In this document: positions 34,239 to 42,779 of the stretch, in pieces | Position numbering within the stretch: the first letter of the stretch is position 1 | Layout of the letters: every line of letters starts with the position of its first letter | DNA from: Nonomuraea sp. NBC_00507 | GTDB taxonomy: Bacteria; Actinomycetota; Actinomycetes; Streptosporangiales; Streptosporangiaceae | Assembly: GCF_036013525.1 (NCBI RefSeq) | Contig: NZ_CP107853.1 | Coordinates: 1,116,001 to 1,180,000 of the forward strand | Direction: 5' to 3' | DNA: 64,000 bases | The notes under the pieces: generated by a model | Told to the model about the DNA's origin: nothing | Seen by the model: the letters and a program-made list of their open reading frames with translations, nothing else | The model's database searches: none | Translations under genes and position numbers: made by a program

Positions 34239-35396
34239 TCAGTGGTGGAACAGCCGTAGGCCGGTGCGGGCCAGCGTGATCCCGTGCTCGCGGCAGGCGT
34301 CCGCGATCTCGTCGGACCGGATGGATCCGCCCGGCTCGGCGATGTAGGTGACACCGTGGTGCTGGGCATGATCGATGTTGTCGCGGAACGGCAGGTAGCC
34401 GTCGGAGACGAACGCGACTTCCCTAAGACGGCGGCTCCACTCGGCACGCTGGTCGGGCGTCAGCTCGTCGACCGGTCCTGTCAGGGCTTGGGCGAAGTGG
34501 CGCCGCTCGAGCGGGGTGAGGCCGCCCTCGATGAAGCGAACCTGCCAGTTGATCTTCTCCTGGTTCCGCAACCCGGGCACGAAGGCAAGGGCACGCACCG
34601 TCGGGTGACGACGGAGCCACCAGGTGTCGACCTTGGCGCCGGCCAGGCGGGTGCAGTCCACCCGGGACTGCTGGCCCGCGCCTATGCCAAGGGTCATGCC
34701 GTTGCGCACGTAACAGACTGAGTTCGACTGGGTGTAGCGCAGGACGATCAGGCCCAGCACCAGGTCGTCGGCGGCCGTCTCGGGCAACGGCGCGCCTACG
34801 ACGAGGTCGAGCAGGTCTCGGGAGATCGGGACCTGCTCGCCGTCCTGGGTCAGGCGCACGCCGAAGACCTCCCGCGACTCCTGCGGCGGAGGGGTGAACG
34901 CCGGGTCCGCTTCCAGGATGAGGAATCGGCCGTTCTTCTTGGTGCTGAGCCGTTCGACGGTGCCGGGCTCGAATCCAGGGGCAATGATGCCGTCGCAGAC
35001 CATTCCGGTCAGGAGTTCGGCGAGGTCGGCGTCGACGGGGTGGGAGACGGCGGCGATGTCGCCGTAGGAGGACTTGGGGTCGGCGTCGCGAGCGCGCAGG
35101 TAGGCGCTGGTCAGGTCGGTGATGCGCGAGCCGGCGATGCCATGGAGCTGCTCGGTGACCTCGTCGATGGGCCCGGACAGGGCCGCGCCCGCGGGTGAGA
35201 CGTGTTTGAACGAGGCGGCGGCGGGCCTGCCCAGCGCCTGGGCGGCCTCGTGCACGAGTTGCCAGGCATTCAGGGCGTCCAGCAGGTTGGTGAACGACGG
35301 TTGTCCGTGCAGAATCCGGACCGGCCAGCGGTCCGGCGTCGTCGGGATGGCGTGCGCTTGTGTTTGCTGCGGGTTGATTCCGTAGCGCAACTGCAC
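34239..35396 (-). CDS. Stand-alone AICAR transformylase (PurH C-terminal domain)
   Basis: The 385-residue enzyme corresponds to the formyltransferase half of PurH, which transfers a formyl group from 10-formyl-THF to AICAR. It opens LRYGINPQQ and has the catalytic Lys64-His65 in ASFKHVSPAGAAL. It also has NSVCYVRNGMTLGIGAGQQS (the substrate loop), RVDCTRLAGAKVDTWWLRRH and SDGYLPFRDNIDHAQHHG. The IMP cyclohydrolase domain is absent. GTG 35396 has GGAGG seven bases upstream. It is not in a purine operon but is divergent from an AfsR-type regulator, so it may serve a specialised pathway or a back-up purine step. Confidence 0.88.
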   Translation of the reverse strand: MQLRYGINPQQTQAHAIPTTPDRWPVRILHGQPSFTNLLDALNAWQLVHEAAQALGRPAAASFKHVSPAGAALSGPIDEVTEQLHGIAGSRITDLTSAYLRARDADPKSSYGDIAAVSHPVDADLAELLTGMVCDGIIAPGFEPGTVERLSTKKNGRFLILEADPAFTPPPQESREVFGVRLTQDGEQVPISRDLLDLVVGAPLPETAADDLVLGLIVLRYTQSNSVCYVRNGMTLGIGAGQQSRVDCTRLAGAKVDTWWLRRHPTVRALAFVPGLRNQEKINWQVRFIEGGLTPLERRHFAQALTGPVDELTPDQRAEWSRRLREVAFVSDGYLPFRDNIDHAQHHGVTYIAEPGGSIRSDEIADACREHGITLARTGLRLFHH

Positions 35397-35643
35397 GTTC
35401 TGGCCTCCTCAGCGGGACTTCGCTGATGGAGGCGCCCAGGCGGTCGACGCTCGCATCGGGACACGGCCGCTCCCCGGTGGTGGCCCACCTGCGCCAGTCG
35501 CGGCCGGGCACTAGTGTACTCAGCCGGTGCCGAACGTTGCTGCCGACGAGATCGCCGTGGACGCGCGGGTGACCACGAGGTCGCCTTGCGTGGCCTCGAC
35601 GGCCCGGTGTACAACGTGTCTCGACAATGATCGGGAGCCGCCT

Positions 35644-38600
35644 GTGACCGTGTACGGAATCCTCGGTCCTGTTCAGGCCCTCTCCGCAGACGGGCCCGTG
35701 CACCTTTCGGGAAAACAGCGGTCCGTGCTTGGCGTGTTACTGCTCTTTTCCAATACGTCGGTCTCCCTGGAGCGGCTGATCGACTGCCTGTGGGAAGAGC
35801 CGCCCGCGTCCGCCGTGTCGAACATCCACAGCTACGTCACCCGCCTCCGCCGAACGGTCGTCCCTCACCTCGTCACCCACGACCACGGCTATCTTCTGAA
35901 TCTCGAGCGGACCCAGCTCGACCTGCTCGTCTTCGAGGACCTGCTGAGCACGGCCCGCCGCCACGCGAACGCTGGAGACCTGGCCGCGGCCAACGACGCA
36001 TACCGGACCGCCCTGTCGCTGTGGCGCGGCCGACCTGCCGAGGACGCGCTGCTCACCTCCGCCGTGACGCCTCGCGTCGCTGTTCTGGAGGAATCGGCGC
36101 TTTCCGCCCGGTCCGACTGGGCCGACGTCCGCTTGCGGCTGGGCCTGCACGAAGAGCTGATCGGCGAGTTACGGGCGCTCGCCGAAGCCAACTCGCTCAA
36201 CGAACGCGTCTGGCGGCAGCTCATACTGGCACTCCACCGGTCCGGCAGGCGGGCCGAGGCCCTGGAGATCTACGGCCGGGTCCGGACAGTGTTGGCGGGT
36301 GAGCTGGGCGTCGAACCGGGCACCGAACTCCAGCGCCTGCACGCGGCGATCCTGGGGAACGACGAGGCGCTCACCCTGCCCGAGCGCCAGACTGTACGCC
36401 GCCTCGTTCCCCGGCAGCTCCCGCCGGCGGTGGGCCGGCTGATCGGCAGGCGGGCGGAGCTCGGACAACTGGACGAGGTGTCAGCCGCGCAGGTGATCCT
36501 CGTGGTCGGGGGCGCCGGAGTCGGCAAGACCACGCTCGCCGTCCACTGGGCGCATCACGTGGCGGAGCGCTTCCCCGACGGGCAGCTCTTCCTCGACCTG
36601 CGGGGGTTCGACCAGGCGCCGCCGATGAGCACAGCCGAGGCGCTGCCGCGCCTGATCCAGGCGCTCGGCTGGCCCACGGAGGACATCCCCGTGGAGCTGG
36701 AGGCCCAGATCGGCCTGTACCGGTCGATCCTGGCCGGACAGCGTGTTCTCGTGGTGCTCGACAACGCCGCCGAGCCGGACCAGATCCGTTCGCTGATACC
36801 CCCCGACACCGGATCCCGGATCCTGGTCACCAGCCGGGATCGGCTGAGCGGCCTGGTGGCGCTGGAGTCCGCCGGGCGGGTCACGCTGGACGTGCTTGAT
36901 CCGGACGAAGCCGTCGAACTGCTCGCCGACACCGTGGGACCGGACAAGGTCCGCAGGGAACCGCACGCCGCCGCGCGCCTGGCTGAACTCTGCGCGCGCC
37001 TGCCGCTGGCCCTGCGGGTCTCGGGCGCCAGGGTGGCGAGCAGCCCGCACAAGACGCTCGCACAGTACATGGCCGAGTTCGGCGATCATGACCTTCTTTC
37101 CCACCTGGAGGTCGCGGGCGATCGGCGCACGGCGGTGCGCGGCGCGGTCGGACGATCCCACGAGGCGCTGGCCCCGGCGGGACGGCGGCTGTTCCGGCTG
37201 ATCGGGCTGGTGCCGAACACCGGCATCACCGTCGCGGGCGCGGTGGCGCTGGCAGGCTACTCCCCGACGGACACGGCCACGCTCCTGGACGACTTGGCGC
37301 GGGTCCATCTGATGAACGCGGGACCGGACCGCTATACCTGTCACGACCTGCTGGTCACGTACGCCGCGGAGCGGGCCGAGGCGGAGGACCCGCCCGCCGA
37401 GCGCGAGACCGCCATCAACCGGTACTTGGACTTCTACCTGCGGACCATCGTCTCCGCGGGAGAGCACGTCGATGTACGCGTGGTCGGACCGGCGCCGGAC
37501 GGACCGGTCACGGACGTGACCCCCCTCTCCTTCAGCAGCACGGCTGACGCGGAGAACTGGCTCGACCGGGAGTGGGACACCATCGCCGCGCTGATCGCCC
37601 ACGCGGCCGAGCGCGGCCCCCACGCCTTGGCCTGGCGGCTGGCCGATGCCCTGAGAGATGTCCTGCCCTGGAAACGGCCCGTCACCGAGTGCCTGCGCAT
37701 CGCCGAACTCGGGCTCAAGGCCGCCCGCATCGAGCAGGACAGCATGGGGCAGGGCGCGATGCTGATGTCCATCGGCTACATACGGTGGCGGATCGCCGAC
37801 CTGGACGCCGCCATGGACGCCTACCGCCAGGCGCTGCCTTTCCTGCGCCGCGCGGGCTGGAGCGCGGGAGAATCGGCCGTGCTGCGAGCCAGCGGGGTCG
37901 CTCTCGCGCAGGCCGGGGCGCCCGAGCACGCCATCGGCCGGTTCCGGCGCGCCCTTGCCATCGACCGCGAGCTCGGCAACCGTGCGGGCGAGACGTCCAG
38001 CCTCGGCAACCTGGCGGCTCTGTATCTTGACCTCGGCCGCTTGCGGGATGCTGAAGAGCGCCACCGGCAGGCGCTCGCCGCGGCCATCGAGATCGGCAAG
38101 CGCCAGCTCGAGGCCGTCGTGCGCACCAACCTCGGAGTGGTTCAGCGGGAGATGGGCCGGCTCGAGGACGCCTTCGCCACGCTCAGCGGGTCATTGTCCG
38201 TCGGGCGCGAGATCGGATCCCCGTACGTGGAGGCCATGGCGCTGGAATCCCTCGGCGGCGTGCATCTGGAGGCCGGTCGCTACGACTCCGCGCTCCAAGC
38301 CCTGTCGGAGGCGATATCCGTGGCCAAGAGCGTCGAGAACCACGAAATCGAGGTGCGCGCGCTGATCGGACTGGCGCTGGTGAGCCTCCGGTGCAGGGAT
38401 GCCGGAGACGCCGACGACCGCCTCGCCGCGGCTGCGGCCATCGCCGAACACAGCAGTCATCGGCCGAACCAGGTGGAGCTGCTGCTGGCGCGATCGGAGC
38501 TGGCCCGATTCCGAGGTCTTCACACCGAGGCGCTGAGCCTCGCCGACTGTGCCCGGCACCTGGCAGGCAATGGGTACGCCTTGGCGCTGGGCAAGGCACA

Positions 38601-38859
38601 CGGCGCTCTCTCGGCCGCGTGCCTTGGTCTGGGCGAGCTGGTCTCCTGCGAGGAGCACTGTGAGGAGGCGCTGCGGATCTTCCGGCGCACCGGGCAGCGG
38701 CTCGCCCAGGCCAGAACGCTGATCACTCTGGGGCATGTGTTTCAGGGGACGGGGAGAGAGGGCGCGGCCCGGTCGGCTTGGCGACGCGCGCACGCCATCC
38801 TGACGAAAGCGGGCGCACCTGAACAGAGGGAGACGTTCGCCTTGCTATACCGGCCCTAG
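35644..38859 (+). CDS. AfsR/SARP family regulator with NB-ARC and TPR domains
   Basis: The 1071-residue protein has an N-terminal OmpR-type winged helix and BTAD (YGILGPVQALSADGPVHLSG, LWRGRPAEDALL), an NB-ARC ATPase (VVGGAGVGKTTLAVHWAHHV with Walker A; VLVVLDNAAEPDQIRSLIPP with Walker B; ILVTSRDRL) and a C-terminal run of TPRs (for example ALQALSEAISVAK). It is built like AfsR, which binds direct repeats upstream of secondary-metabolite activators. GTG 35644 (VTVYGILGP) has GGGAG upstream; the 35527 start is less likely. Its stop overlaps that of the convergent GxGD membrane protein by four bases. Targets are unknown, but it flanks an unusual locus. Confidence 0.9.
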   Translation: MTVYGILGPVQALSADGPVHLSGKQRSVLGVLLLFSNTSVSLERLIDCLWEEPPASAVSNIHSYVTRLRRTVVPHLVTHDHGYLLNLERTQLDLLVFEDLLSTARRHANAGDLAAANDAYRTALSLWRGRPAEDALLTSAVTPRVAVLEESALSARSDWADVRLRLGLHEELIGELRALAEANSLNERVWRQLILALHRSGRRAEALEIYGRVRTVLAGELGVEPGTELQRLHAAILGNDEALTLPERQTVRRLVPRQLPPAVGRLIGRRAELGQLDEVSAAQVILVVGGAGVGKTTLAVHWAHHVAERFPDGQLFLDLRGFDQAPPMSTAEALPRLIQALGWPTEDIPVELEAQIGLYRSILAGQRVLVVLDNAAEPDQIRSLIPPDTGSRILVTSRDRLSGLVALESAGRVTLDVLDPDEAVELLADTVGPDKVRREPHAAARLAELCARLPLALRVSGARVASSPHKTLAQYMAEFGDHDLLSHLEVAGDRRTAVRGAVGRSHEALAPAGRRLFRLIGLVPNTGITVAGAVALAGYSPTDTATLLDDLARVHLMNAGPDRYTCHDLLVTYAAERAEAEDPPAERETAINRYLDFYLRTIVSAGEHVDVRVVGPAPDGPVTDVTPLSFSSTADAENWLDREWDTIAALIAHAAERGPHALAWRLADALRDVLPWKRPVTECLRIAELGLKAARIEQDSMGQGAMLMSIGYIRWRIADLDAAMDAYRQALPFLRRAGWSAGESAVLRASGVALAQAGAPEHAIGRFRRALAIDRELGNRAGETSSLGNLAALYLDLGRLRDAEERHRQALAAAIEIGKRQLEAVVRTNLGVVQREMGRLEDAFATLSGSLSVGREIGSPYVEAMALESLGGVHLEAGRYDSALQALSEAISVAKSVENHEIEVRALIGLALVSLRCRDAGDADDRLAAAAAIAEHSSHRPNQVELLLARSELARFRGLHTEALSLADCARHLAGNGYALALGKAHGALSAACLGLGELVSCEEHCEEALRIFRRTGQRLAQARTLITLGHVFQGTGREGAARSAWRRAHAILTKAGAPEQRETFALLYRP

Positions 38860-39884
38860 ATCTGCCTGATGAACGGGACGTTCTGGTAACCGGCGCGGCG
38901 TGCGGCTCGTAGCGCCGTCCCAGGTGTCGGTCCCTGTGCGATGACCGCATCGTCGTCAACGGCCGCCCAGGTGCCGGCCGGCAGGTCGGTCGCGGATCGG
39001 ACGGTGCGCAGGGCGCTCACCATCTGGTCGATTCGGCCGGACGTGTCGACCGCTGACGTCGGCACACCGAGCCATTGGTGGGTGCGGCGTTCCGCCCCGC
39101 GGATCCTGCGCCAGAGCAGATACTGAACAAGGATCGCCGGCCCCAGCACGGTGAGGAACGCCATGCCTGAGTGGAGCACGCCGGTGGCGAATCCGATCTG
39201 CACCACGATGATCAGGCCGATGCCGGTGGCCGCCCCGATCCATCCCGCGGGCTTGCCGTACGCCTTGGTCGCCACCATCGGCCACAGCGCCAGGATCAGA
39301 CAGTCGCCGAGGCCCGCCGCGACCGGTATGGCTCCGCTCGTCACGGCGAGGAGCGGCGCGAACGGATAGCCCTCCACCTGAGCCAGGAACCGATCGGTCA
39401 TGTCGCCAAGGCCGGTGGCGAACAGGTCGTACACCGCCAGCGCGGTGGCGAACGCCGCGACGTGCCCGGCTGTCATCCCGGTCTGCGTCCACAGACTTGT
39501 CACACCGATCACGGCGATCATGATGAGGACGGCATTGAGCACCAGCACCAAGGTGCCGTACCCGGCGATGGCGGCTCCGGCCGCGGTGGCGACGAGCAGG
39601 ACGGCGGCGACCGTCGCCGGTCGTCCCCCCAGCAACGACGCGAGCGCGAGCTGGACGCTGGCGAGGAACATGACGCCGAATACCGCGGAGACGGCCTGTG
39701 CCGGCATGGCGAGATACGTGATGGGCATCACGACCACCAGACAGCTCATGATGAGCACGTCGGAGGTGGTGAAACGCCCTACCGGCGGTCGCGGCAGCCG
39801 GAACCGGTGCGCGTAGCCGAGGCCGAGCAGCACGATCAGAGCGATGAGGAGGTCGAGTAACGCGAAGTTCTGCAAGGTGAACAT
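38856..39884 (-). CDS. Predicted GxGD intramembrane aspartyl protease (presenilin/signal peptide peptidase-like)
   Basis: This 342-residue protein has nine hydrophobic helices and all three signatures of the A22 family. YD is in helix 6 (ALAVYDLFATG, Asp153). GLGD is in helix 7 (VAAGLGDCLILALW, Asp194). A PAL-like PAIL is in helix 9 (LGPAILVQYLLW, 249-252). A22 proteases cleave transmembrane segments such as leftover signal peptides using these two aspartates. A soluble tail of about 80 residues with a small alpha/beta segment (TWAAVDDDAVIAQG) follows. Start ATG 39884 has GGAGA upstream and lies 34 bp after the PaaK-like stop, so the two form an operon. The assignment rests on motif and topology, not on a search. 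Confidence 0.72.
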   Translation of the reverse strand: MFTLQNFALLDLLIALIVLLGLGYAHRFRLPRPPVGRFTTSDVLIMSCLVVVMPITYLAMPAQAVSAVFGVMFLASVQLALASLLGGRPATVAAVLLVATAAGAAIAGYGTLVLVLNAVLIMIAVIGVTSLWTQTGMTAGHVAAFATALAVYDLFATGLGDMTDRFLAQVEGYPFAPLLAVTSGAIPVAAGLGDCLILALWPMVATKAYGKPAGWIGAATGIGLIIVVQIGFATGVLHSGMAFLTVLGPAILVQYLLWRRIRGAERRTHQWLGVPTSAVDTSGRIDQMVSALRTVRSATDLPAGTWAAVDDDAVIAQGPTPGTALRAARRAGYQNVPFIRQI

Positions 39885-39918
39885 GGGGTCTCCGGGCCGG
39901 CGAGAGAGGTGATCGCCG

Positions 39919-41352
39919 CTATGAAGGCGACGTCTCGAAACTGTGCTCGTACAGGTCCGCGCGCACTCGGCACGGCTCGGGAAGATCCCGGGCTTCTTCG
40001 ACGAGCACGATGTCGGCGACCTGCAGTGACCGAGCCGCCGCTCGCTCCTCGATCCGGCCGGCAAGACCGCCGCCGCGTGGTGCGACGACATGAAGATCGG
40101 GCTTGAGCGGATCGCCGGTCAGCGCGTACCGGGTGGGCAGCGGGACCTCCCTCACTCCCTGCAGCACCTCCAGGATGTCGCGGGCGGTCGGACCTCCGGT
40201 GAAGTGTTTGGCCCGCCCGACGATCGGTGAGGTGGCCGGGAGCTGAGCCAGCTCGCAGCCATAGGGTTCGTCCGGGAGCCGGCGGACGAGATCGCCCGTT
40301 CTGTACCGGACGAGCAGTGTCGTGTCTCGGTAGGGAACGTACGGCGTGGCCACGAGTTCGCCGATCTCACCCACCGGCGCCGGGGTGTCGGCGTTCCGGT
40401 CGAGGACCTCGAAGTGGGCCTGCTCGGATGCCAGATGAAGGTGCTGCTGCGTGCAGACCAGTCCCGTGGTCGGCACGAGCTCCGTCATTCCGTACACGTC
40501 GGAGACCGGCACGTCGAACACCTCGCGTACCCGCTCGCGCAGCGCGTCGGTCAGGATTTCCGCTCCGGTCAGGATCTGGCGCAGCCCGAAGTCTCTGGCC
40601 TGCCAGCCGTCCTGCTCGGCGCGCTGCACGAGCGCCCCCAGGTACGAGGGAACCGTGTACAGGTCGGTGATGTGCGGCGCCTTTCCTGGCAGGTGCAGCG
40701 GCGTGGCCAGCCGGTCCAGCGCGATGCCCGGGTCGACCAGTCCTTGCGCGACAAAACCGGCGCCGACGAGGCCCAGCGCCCGCTGCACCGAGATCAGGCC
40801 CACGGTCGCTCGCGAGCTGACACACGACATGCTGACGTGGTGTTCCCGCACGCCACCGACCATGAGGTAGGAGATCGCGGACAGTACCGCGGACAGCTCC
40901 AGCTCGTAGCGCGAAAACCAGACGACGGTCGGCGTCCCGGTGGTGCCGGTGGTCTGTGCCATCAGGACCGGTTCGCTCTGGTCGGACACGAACGCCGGAC
41001 CGGCGCCGCGCAAGGCCGACTTGGGCGTGGACGCGACCTGGTCCAGTTGATCGAGACCGATGCGACTCGGATCGACCCCGTGCTCCTTGAACCAGAGCCG
41101 ATAGTAGGCAGTGTGCTCGGCAGCCTGGCGGATCGCCTGGCGCAGGCGCCGGTCCGCCATCGACCGCCGGATCTCCGGGTCATCGACACCGCCGCCGGGC
41201 AGCAGCTCATTGGCGCCCTCACCCGGCTCGCCGAACTCGTCAAGCGTCTGACGGAGGTCGGTCACCATTTTCCGTAGTGCGTCAACGTCGAATCGGCCGC
41301 CGCGGAGCACGGTGGCGACATAGCGGAGCTGTCGAGCGGCTGTGGCAAGCAT
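39919..41352 (-). CDS. PaaK/CapK-like adenylate-forming enzyme
   Basis: The 477-residue protein is an ANL-superfamily member of the phenylacetate-CoA ligase type: phosphate-binding TTGTTGTP at 134-141, VSDVYGMTELVPTTGL (motif with the adenine-stacking Tyr), VRYRTGDLVRRL and SPIVGRAKHF. Such enzymes activate a carboxylate as an acyl-AMP, then usually transfer it to CoA or another nucleophile. The first 60 residues are not typical and may mark a subfamily. ATG 41352 has GAGG four bases upstream. It follows a 26-codon ORF and precedes the GxGD protease, so its substrate might be a peptide, fatty or aromatic acid (inference). Confidence 0.85.
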   Translation of the reverse strand: MLATAARQLRYVATVLRGGRFDVDALRKMVTDLRQTLDEFGEPGEGANELLPGGGVDDPEIRRSMADRRLRQAIRQAAEHTAYYRLWFKEHGVDPSRIGLDQLDQVASTPKSALRGAGPAFVSDQSEPVLMAQTTGTTGTPTVVWFSRYELELSAVLSAISYLMVGGVREHHVSMSCVSSRATVGLISVQRALGLVGAGFVAQGLVDPGIALDRLATPLHLPGKAPHITDLYTVPSYLGALVQRAEQDGWQARDFGLRQILTGAEILTDALRERVREVFDVPVSDVYGMTELVPTTGLVCTQQHLHLASEQAHFEVLDRNADTPAPVGEIGELVATPYVPYRDTTLLVRYRTGDLVRRLPDEPYGCELAQLPATSPIVGRAKHFTGGPTARDILEVLQGVREVPLPTRYALTGDPLKPDLHVVAPRGGGLAGRIEERAAARSLQVADIVLVEEARDLPEPCRVRADLYEHSFETSPS

Positions 41353-41423
41353 GGGGCCTCAATTCATCTGACGGCACAGACTGGCCGGTCGGCCGGTCCG
41401 TAGACCGGCCGACCGTGTTTCCA

Positions 41424-41504
41424 TTAGCTGCAGGGCAGCTGGAACAGTGCAGTCGTCAGGGTGCTGAGTGCGTACCTGGCATAGCGCAGGCTCATTCTGA
41501 CCAC
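41424..41504 (-). CDS. Candidate 26-residue peptide gene upstream of the PaaK-like/GxGD operon
   Basis: On the minus strand a GTG at 41504 lies five bases after a perfect GGAGG (41514-41510) and opens a 26-codon frame ending in TAA. The peptide has a basic start (VRMSLRYARY), a hydrophobic core (ALSTLTTALF) and the end QLPCS. ATG 41495 is an internal alternative start without its own binding site. The shape, a charged head plus a membrane-length hydrophobic segment with a short C-terminal tail, resembles a signal peptide or pheromone precursor. It lies 71 bp before the adenylating enzyme. It could be a leader peptide or, with the downstream protease, a substrate. It is too short to prove by composition. 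Confidence 0.45.
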   Translation of the reverse strand: MVRMSLRYARYALSTLTTALFQLPCS

Positions 41505-41579
41505 AGGTTCCTCCATTCGACACTCGCCCCGGCCTGTCCGCAGCGAGGCATATGGGTGGCGTGGTGAACAGGAGCCGTA

Positions 41580-41630
41580 TTTGGGGGACAACGCGCGGCC
41601 ATGGCATCAAAACGCTTGACATCCCCCAAA
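41580..41630. promoter_or_regulatory. Inverted repeat upstream of the peptide/PaaK/GxGD operon
   Basis: Perfect 9-bp arms TTTGGGGGA (41580-41588) and TCCCCCAAA (41622-41630) are centred 42 bp apart, with partly matching flanks. A further inverted pair ggccgtct/agacggcc lies at 41633-41640 and 41670-41677, and an exact palindrome agagccggctct at 41683-41694. The remaining DNA to 41873 contains no convincing gene. These are likely binding sites for a regulator of the operon. Confidence 0.5.
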
Positions 41631-41873
41631 CCGGCCGTCTCCCACACGATCAGCGGTTACCGGACTGATAGACGGCCTAGGTAGAGCCGGCTCTCCCGGT
41701 GCGATCGCCTCATGGCCAACGATTGCGTCGGACCCCATAAAGCCTCCATATGAGCACCACATGCGAGAGCCCCTTGGCGATCGCCGCCCTGGCCGGCGCC
41801 CTGGCTGCGCGTTCCGCGCCCAGGCGGCCGACGCTCGCATCCCGGCGCACGAGCCGACAGCGCTCGTTCAAGG

Positions 41874-42779
41874 TCAAGCGAACACGCAGGGCGCTGATCG
41901 GCCGGTGTCCGCGTTGTCCGGGTCGGGGGCGGTTACGGTGTCCCGCGTCGTGCCACCGCCTCGGGCGGGCGCGGCGGCGTCACCGGCCGGAGTGTGTGCG
42001 GCCAGGCCGATGACGCCGCCTGCGGTGACGACGACCGCGCCCAAGGCGAGGACCACTCCCGTCCCGCCCATGCGGACGCCGTCTCCCAGCAGCAGGATCC
42101 CGATCGCGCCGGCGACGACCGGGTTCGCGACACTGACCATGGCCAGCGGGGCCGCCAGGCCGCCACCTCGGTAGGAATGCTGGCTGAGCAGTTGTCCGGC
42201 CACGGCCAGGACGCCGATCGTGACCAGAGAAGGCAGCGAGGCGCCGGTGATGCCGGTGGGCAGGTCGATCATCACGGTCTTGGTCAGGACCGATGACACG
42301 GCGAACGCCGTACCTGCGGCCCCTGCGAGCAGGAGGCTTCTGGCCATGGGAGAGGTGGCGCGGCGTGCGGTGACGGCGAGGGCGACGATCGCGATCACGG
42401 CGATGGCGGACAGCCACTGCGCCGAGGCCGCGATGAGGGTGCCGGGGCCGCCAGTGGTCAGGGCGAGCAGTGCGGCCAGGCCGGTGACGGTCAGCCAGGA
42501 GTGCTGCCAGGCGGCGCGGGTGACGCTGCGGCCTCGTACGGCGGCCATCGGCAGGGCGAAGATGAGGGTGAGCGCACCGAGGGCTTGCACCACGCCGACG
42601 GCGCCGTACTGGAGCGCGATGACGTGAAGTCCGCCGCCGGCCGCGTTGAGCAGGAGCGGCAGCACCCAGCGGAGCTTCCCCTGTCGTACGCCGGCGAAGT
42701 GGTCCTGGGCGACGGCGGCCGCCGCGTAGCAGATCGCCGAGAGCACGGACAGGGCGATGGCCCAGGACAAGGCGGTCAT
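41874..42779 (-). CDS. DMT superfamily (EamA-like) transporter
   Basis: The 301-residue membrane protein has nine or ten helices in two repeats. Seen are AICYAAAAVAQDHFAG, LQYGAVGVVQALGALTLIFA and, in the second half, AVSSVLTKTVMIDLPTG and NPVVAGAIGILLLGDG. DMT carriers export amino acids, sugars or metabolites; the substrate is unknown. A polar Ala/Gly/Asp-rich tail follows the last helix. ATG 42779 is chosen. It is read in the same direction as the peptide/PaaK/GxGD operon, 370 bp upstream of it, but a separate transcript is likely. Confidence 0.8.
   Translation of the reverse strand: MTALSWAIALSVLSAICYAAAAVAQDHFAGVRQGKLRWVLPLLLNAAGGGLHVIALQYGAVGVVQALGALTLIFALPMAAVRGRSVTRAAWQHSWLTVTGLAALLALTTGGPGTLIAASAQWLSAIAVIAIVALAVTARRATSPMARSLLLAGAAGTAFAVSSVLTKTVMIDLPTGITGASLPSLVTIGVLAVAGQLLSQHSYRGGGLAAPLAMVSVANPVVAGAIGILLLGDGVRMGGTGVVLALGAVVVTAGGVIGLAAHTPAGDAAAPARGGGTTRDTVTAPDPDNADTGRSAPCVFA

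Follow-up and report, generated by a model that had tools for sequence, protein, structure and literature searches.

Based on our analysis of the 64,000-nucleotide stretch of the genome of Nonomuraea sp. NBC_00507 presented above (the window), we propose a new model for three neighboring genes: a presenilin-fold intramembrane protease would cut a hydrophobic micropeptide and a PaaK-like adenylate-forming ligase would modify it, so that the trio forms a peptide-maturation cassette. On balance we consider this model probable. A reading of open reading frames (ORFs) in the window confirmed the protease gene. On the minus strand the order is a 26-codon ORF, a hairpin, the ligase gene and the protease gene, as laid out below, where SPP stands for signal peptide peptidase and each line ends with its evidence.

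41510..41514, minus strand: Shine-Dalgarno-like GGAGG of the micropeptide ORF (sequence)
41424..41504, minus strand: micropeptide ORF of 26 codons plus stop with a GTG start, MVRMSLRYARYALSTLTTALFQLPCS, candidate precursor or substrate (ORF, relatives, motif)
41386..41415, minus strand: GC-rich hairpin in the peptide-ligase spacer, 3' of the peptide ORF (folding)
39919..41352, minus strand: PaaK-like adenylate-forming (ANL) enzyme of 477 amino acids, C-terminal domain without a conserved lysine (Pfam, motifs, predicted fold)
38856..39884, minus strand: presenilin/SPP-fold (GxGD) intramembrane aspartyl protease-like protein of 342 amino acids, catalytic Asp153 and Asp194 by homology (ORF, homologues, predicted model, structural alignment)
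38868..38978, minus strand: C-terminal soluble domain of the protease (residues 303-339), weakly DUF5678-like (E 0.0045, below the Pfam cut-off)
35527..38859, plus strand: convergent SARP/AfsR-type regulator (BTAD, NB-ARC, TPR), outside the conserved cassette (4-bp overlap with the protease gene)

We take it as very likely that the protease family belongs to the GxGD-fold aspartyl proteases. DSSP analysis of the AlphaFold2 (AF2) model predicts nine transmembrane helices (TM): TM6 (residues 139-159) includes Y152-D153, G191-L192-G193-D194 starts TM7 (192-209), TM9 spans residues 244-262, and structural alignment of the predicted model recovers the presenilin fold. An earlier reading of the letters alone (the original prediction) had described nine hydrophobic helices with YD in the sixth and GLGD at the seventh and had called the protein A22-like; this layout is reproduced by the predicted model, and the assignment is backed by the fold and by conservation. 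The Tyr and Asp of TM6 and the two Gly and the Asp of TM7 show no substitution in any of the 52 homologues, nor do the positions equivalent to Gln134 and Asp42. We regard the constancy of the TM6 and TM7 residues, like the restriction of the peptide motif to cassettes (below), as more than a chance pattern. Homologues devoid of both aspartates, which the prediction had named as contrary evidence, do not occur among the 52. Lys and Arg residues average 13.4 in the loops on one side against 2.6 in those on the other, in the same sense in all 52 proteins, a pattern that by the positive-inside rule places the N-terminus outside and the C-terminus inside. The predicted orientation is therefore of SPP type (N-out/C-in).

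Several observations pull the other way. No Foldseek match to the protease model has an E-value below 0.001; hmmscan of the window protein and of the 52 homologues against Pfam and NCBIfam, the profile search that the original prediction had recommended, matched no A22 model; a PF06550 search of the window's genome stays empty at E 10; and the A1 and A3 profiles of the protease family retrieve no presenilin from the PDB sequences. Profile-profile comparison with bacterial PF06550 proteins gives weak matches, with YD and GxGD in register for A3 (E 0.0032, probability 9.9) and YD alone covered for A1 (E 0.041, probability 1.3). The link of the family to A22 is thus one of predicted structure and weak profile-profile comparison only. 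TM9 is a further difficulty. A Pro stands at its start in 51 of 52 proteins, Met or Leu follows two residues later in 50, and a Gly and a Pro seven residues beyond the first Pro are found in 51 each. The sole exception at the TM9 start is the window protein, in which Ala242 replaces Pro. The sequence PAIL (249-252), which the original prediction had taken for the PAL motif of helix 9, belongs to the conserved G-P pair; the assignment is doubtful on this alignment, in which either of the two places may correspond to PAL, and it is probably wrong. Within A1, Ala242 also occurs in the five closest relatives of the window protein, and substrate gating in this clade may be different. The absence of the TM9-start Pro from the window protein and the extreme sequence divergence from A22 would suit a nine-helix protein of presenilin fold that has no protease function here, serving for example in binding or transport. 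The invariance of YD, GxGD and the Gln134 and Asp42 equivalents in 52 of 52 homologues speaks against such a role, which we regard as very improbable. Where the listed protease homologues carry a name, it is 'hypothetical' or 'uncharacterized', except for one HAD fusion; in a 636-residue metagenomic protein (P0106) the protease is fused with a HAD-type hydrolase domain. The DUF5678-like C-terminal domain is detected in eight of the 52 members (best E 7.2e-4) and was not seen in loci L039, L040 and L041.

The proposed partnership draws on the recurrence of the three genes. A scan with the protease alone, one genome per species, yielded 32 loci in Nonomuraea (one named [Actinomadura] parvosata), Streptomyces, Actinacidiphila, Actinomadura, a Streptosporangiaceae metagenome-assembled genome (MAG) and two Chloroflexota MAGs. 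A PaaK-like gene lies directly upstream of the protease gene in 32/32 of them, and a peptide ORF is nearby in 32/32. The 34-bp gap between ligase and protease genes that the original prediction had reported is exact for the window; most of the 32 relatives show instead a frame overlap of a few bases. When distinct ligase-protease pairs are counted, 48 of 49 are accompanied by the peptide, in Actinomycetota and Chloroflexota, and the search for the same trio that the prediction had suggested is therefore positive in actinobacteria and beyond. The 49 pairs comprise the window (1), the protease-scan loci (32), plasmids (2), Streptomyces (9, that is 11 intact cassettes minus L091 and L094, whose site is identical to L030 and L038), Nonomuraea (4, that is five minus L104, identical to L034) and L056; L095 and L057 (ligase not found), two of four plasmid matches and loci with short flanks are left out, and the same species may recur under different assemblies. 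The later regions hold the peptide in 11 of 12 cases in Streptomyces, the twelfth being a broken cassette, and in 5 of 5 in Nonomuraea. Five of these Streptomyces regions (L096-L100) form a second subfamily, with proteases 30-34% identical to the window protein. Its peptides, such as MSAIVSTLKHTKYVMGSLAAVLFTNCPS, carry a Cys close to the C-terminus (NCPS, TCSAS), which recalls the LPCS of the window. In L105 the protease extends past the contig end, and genome G025, from the window's genus, holds two divergent cassette copies (L002 and L010/L101).

The recurrence has its own weak points. The exceptional pair, L056 on a 3.8-kb contig, has ligase and protease and no recognizable peptide in the 569 bases before or the 814 after them, and the broken cassette L095 has a partial protease without ligase or peptide. 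The peptide of L097 emerged from a reading of small ORFs and not from the profile, which finds those of L098 and L099 only at E 0.04-0.05. Protease and ligase distances correlate across 34 loci with r 0.956, a value that comes from related sequences and is not to be read as a probability. Neighbor clustering over the 32 loci finds no third enzyme, exporter or receptor widely shared beside the cassette: SARP-type genes occur in 8/32 at varying positions, an unidentified cluster in 6/32 and all others in at most four. Two neighbor clusters (seven and four loci) were discarded as shadow ORFs, since by position they run antisense across the protease gene; inspection by eye also set aside the secreted proteins near L039 and L056 as probably unrelated. 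For L057, a more distant homologue, neither ligase nor peptide was seen, but its contig includes only about 275 bases ahead of the protease; this locus therefore says nothing for or against the cassette. One frame at that contig end (5180-5454) resembles the end of the ligase (RGVPLATLTLRDDP), and L057 may belong to the cassette loci.

The micropeptide is a candidate substrate. An ORF of 22-29 codons precedes the ligase in 30 of the 32 loci, and a profile of these 30 found the peptide in the remaining two: downstream of the protease in L041 (E 1.2e-7) and as two copies on the opposite strand in L039 (E about 0.02 each). Across 36 aligned peptides, [KR]-Y at the anchor, Leu or Met at +5 and Phe at +10 are each present in 36/36; [KR]Y[AVI] served as the anchor of the alignment, and conservation there is partly imposed, unlike that of Phe +10 and Leu/Met +5. 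On average 2.7 basic residues stand ahead of the anchor Tyr, 34 of the 36 peptides are uncharged after it, and the C-terminal half is conserved, mostly uncharged, hydrophobic and rich in Ser, Thr and Ala. The window ORF, noted originally as a frame of signal-peptide shape ahead of the ligase, is confirmed with its GTG start and its upstream GGAGG, and encodes a basic N-terminus followed by a mostly uncharged stretch. Judged by its residues, the peptide is shaped like an SPP substrate, and its charge predicts an N-in (type II) topology, the orientation cut by SPP-type enzymes; a published account (PMC7768045) states that SPP and SPPL enzymes cut type II substrates and presenilins type I. Hence peptide charge, the SPP-like protease orientation and gene linkage, all read from sequence, fit a single model, and it appears likely that the peptide is the substrate of the protease.

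A motif derived from the peptides matches 38 times, at 37 distinct sites (the stretch of L041 was scanned twice), in 543,707 bases read on both strands in all frames. Every match lies in a cassette, 3-6 residues ahead of a stop; the rest of the 64-kb window contains none, and neither do 11 loci of ordinary SPP proteins. Two reservations lessen the weight of this count: the motif was written after the peptides had been seen, and the sequences are related. The later loci serve as an independent check, and there the strict motif recurs in 5 of 5 cassettes from Nonomuraea and in 8 of the 11 intact ones from Streptomyces, with Gln at the first position in the remaining three. In 19 Streptomyces-type peptides the ratio of non-synonymous to synonymous differences (pN/pS) is 0.27 in frame against 0.63 and 1.36 in the other frames, which indicates that the peptide is under purifying selection. 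The peptide ORF has no entry in one annotated record, whose gene table is incomplete.

Could so conserved a peptide be a partner of the protease and not its substrate? As a small subunit or regulator, PEN-2-like or inhibitor-like, it would leave the enzyme to substrates elsewhere, such as remnant signal peptides. A membrane-type peptide that is highly conserved, has no hypervariable core and co-occurs strictly with the ligase-protease pair would suit this role. However, L039 and L040 hold two peptide copies, each with its own start, the placement of the peptide gene varies (upstream, downstream, opposite strand) and the ligase is left unexplained; we judge a subunit improbable. The two micropeptide genes in each of these Chloroflexota cassettes, both from the protease scan, differ in sequence (L040 4010-4216; L039 4554-5174, minus strand), and L039 has a third possible relative, MKKLILDISSMLAWFRELWWKVVRFGRSLN.

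The hairpin between peptide and ligase genes is as expected if a short precursor is to exceed its enzymes. Hairpins lie 3' of the peptide ORF in 19 of 19 spacers folded, with sequences that differ between clades; these are 19 of the 31 spacers with an upstream peptide, in GC-rich DNA and without a shuffle control, a reservation about the hairpins. The window hairpin has a terminator-like T tail only if the stem is read on the plus strand, an Rfam search of 38500-42200 at gathering cut-offs gave no match, and a promoter scan returned a single site, on the opposite strand within the protease gene. A short ORF directly upstream of an operon and followed by a strong hairpin is also how a leader peptide would look, acting as a translational or transcriptional attenuator of the ligase and protease genes. 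This explanation founders on placement: a cis-acting leader cannot work from downstream of the protease (L041) or from the opposite strand (L039), so leader control is excluded for these two loci, and in L033 the spacer reaches 291 nt. For the cassette in general we consider it scarcely credible.

The ligase is the least certain partner. Its predicted structure has the PaaK fold (pLDDT 90), the nearest solved structures are BT_0428, PaaK1, AjiA1 and NatL2, and it carries TTGT[TS]G, TE and YxTGD-type motifs. In ANL enzymes the A10 catalytic lysine lies in the C-terminal domain. Here, in an alignment of 20, no position beyond residue 362 of P0002 has Lys conserved to 90% or more, an obstacle for the proposed chemistry, and the C-terminal domain ends in R-x-D-L-x-E-x-x-F. 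Because of the missing lysine we call the enzyme 'PaaK-like', not PaaK. It shares its predicted fold and motifs with PaaK1, BT_0428 and the AMP-ligases NatL2, AjiA1 and ClxA, the last three of which come from natural-product pathways; it differs from PaaK-type ligases in the absent C-terminal lysine, in its distinctive end and in its coupling to a protease. The enzyme probably activates an acid and transfers it directly to the peptide, the least secure step of the model, and whether the peptide is what it acts on we consider an even question.

How would the cassette work? The ribosome would make the peptide in excess over the enzymes, as the intervening hairpin suggests, and the peptide would take its place in the membrane as a helix resembling a signal peptide. 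The PaaK-like enzyme would form an acyl-AMP from a carboxylate and join an acyl or aryl cap to the peptide; alternatively, it may activate the peptide's own carboxylate. The protease would then cut within the hydrophobic half. The mature product so released would most plausibly be a small signal or antibiotic, either secreted or acting on the membrane. A signal is our tentative choice, and an antibiotic or toxin-like product appears rather unlikely. The cassette shows one mark of ribosomally synthesized and post-translationally modified peptides and of processed pheromones: next to the gene of a precursor-like peptide lie genes for candidate enzymes of modification and cleavage. The idea in the original prediction of an operon that produces a membrane peptide, such as a pheromone, and modifies or cleaves it is supported by the predicted fold, both aspartates and the recurrence of the three genes, while its PAL assignment is in doubt. 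Subunit, toxin or non-proteolytic roles are possible, but explain less than the maturation model. We offer, with some reserve, the view that the cassettes of Actinomycetota and Chloroflexota define a new class of ribosomal peptide signals or natural products, whose maturation would be the work of a presenilin/SPP-type aspartyl protease together with a carrier-free PaaK-like ligase.

This model is related to known systems. The cassette protease shares nine helices, YD in TM6, GxGD in TM7 and the predicted fold with SPP/SPPL, presenilin and the archaeal homologues PSH and MCMJR1, and the N-out/C-in charge pattern with SPP. In contrast to A22 enzymes, its TM9 reads P-x-[ML] ... GP (Ala in the window protein) instead of PAL, it matches no Pfam or NCBIfam A22 model, and it adjoins a ligase and a micropeptide. 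The Chloroflexota also encode ordinary bacterial SPP proteins of the same fold family (PF06550; 11/301 genomes; L063-L073), a weak point for the original prediction, in which known A22 enzymes are mainly eukaryotic and archaeal. These have GGGD and P-A-x-P-P, a profile of nine of the 11 matches PSH at 5.7e-15, and their loci, about 3.6 kb each, contain no ligase match and no peptide motif. L063 and L064 encode 525-residue SPP proteins with PF06550 in the C-terminal half and extra helices in front; the front part presumably includes an NfeD-like soluble part. Eep/RseP site-2 proteases, which process lipoprotein signal peptides into pheromones, are metalloproteases, and their precursor is part of a lipoprotein; we know of no ligase or dedicated cassette in their processing. 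Common to both would be the principle that cleavage inside the membrane sets a short peptide loose from a precursor resembling a signal peptide, and one article (PMC10202637) describes such release of pheromones by site-2 proteases. What we take to be new is the three-gene system and not the fold; ordinary bacterial SPP proteins and pheromones freed by site-2 proteases were already known. The original prediction knew of no described system of this composition; likewise, among the matches listed from the open-access literature we found no description of the protease family or the trio, an absence that is not proof.

What are the implications of a dedicated substrate? If the model is right, no earlier presenilin-fold protease of a prokaryote would, to our knowledge, have had a dedicated substrate defined by genetics; for archaeal MCMJR1 the physiological substrate was unknown when the enzyme was described, according to that report (PMC2947513). 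The cassette would provide a single-peptide, single-protease model for intramembrane cleavage. Its candidate substrate is about 25 residues long, conserved over two phyla and linked to its enzymes in 48/49 loci; as evolution supplies it, cleavage, site choice and orientation become testable in a minimal two-component system. Under the model there would also be a pathway to peptide products that annotation is prone to overlook, and the cassette points to an undescribed route to a small peptide product in soil and environmental bacteria.

The distribution of the cassette is patchy. The protease was found in at least 9 of 59 relatives, the own genome counted; its core matched in at least 13 of 199 Streptomyces, with the center genome and one broken copy counted; and it occurs in at least 1 of 296 Actinomycetes sampled, which is the own genome. 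The classes of the two Chloroflexota finds give at least 3/298 and at least 1/150, those finds counted, and four more genomes in the 298-genome class match the C-terminal part of the protease only. Few candidates were scored per genome (7 in the 298-genome class and the Actinomycetes, up to 14 in the 150-genome class, 10 in Streptomyces), so these frequencies are lower bounds. Four plasmid records also carry a cassette protease. Patchiness in Streptomyces, the plasmids and the small, hydrophobic nature of the peptide would be in keeping with a toxin-antitoxin or phage-defense unit, in which protease or ligase neutralizes a toxic peptide. However, a nine-helix protease with an adenylating enzyme would make an unusual antitoxin, PADLOC matches neither the two proteases submitted nor the ligase, which speaks against a known defense system, and the viral contigs offered 57 candidate stretches, all without a gene for a relative, which speaks against a phage origin; we give such a unit a slim chance.

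The host genome measures 12.9 Mb and the closest homologues are from Nonomuraea. In six of the seven Nonomuraea-type loci among the 32 (the exception is L026) a SARP/AfsR-type NB-ARC-TPR gene is convergent with the cassette, so a regulatory link may exist in Nonomuraea. Farther along in the window, a 385-residue protein (34239-35396, minus strand), which we take to resemble the stand-alone AICAR transformylase half of PurH, adjoins the SARP gene and an MFS-type protein, and may belong to a biosynthetic cluster.
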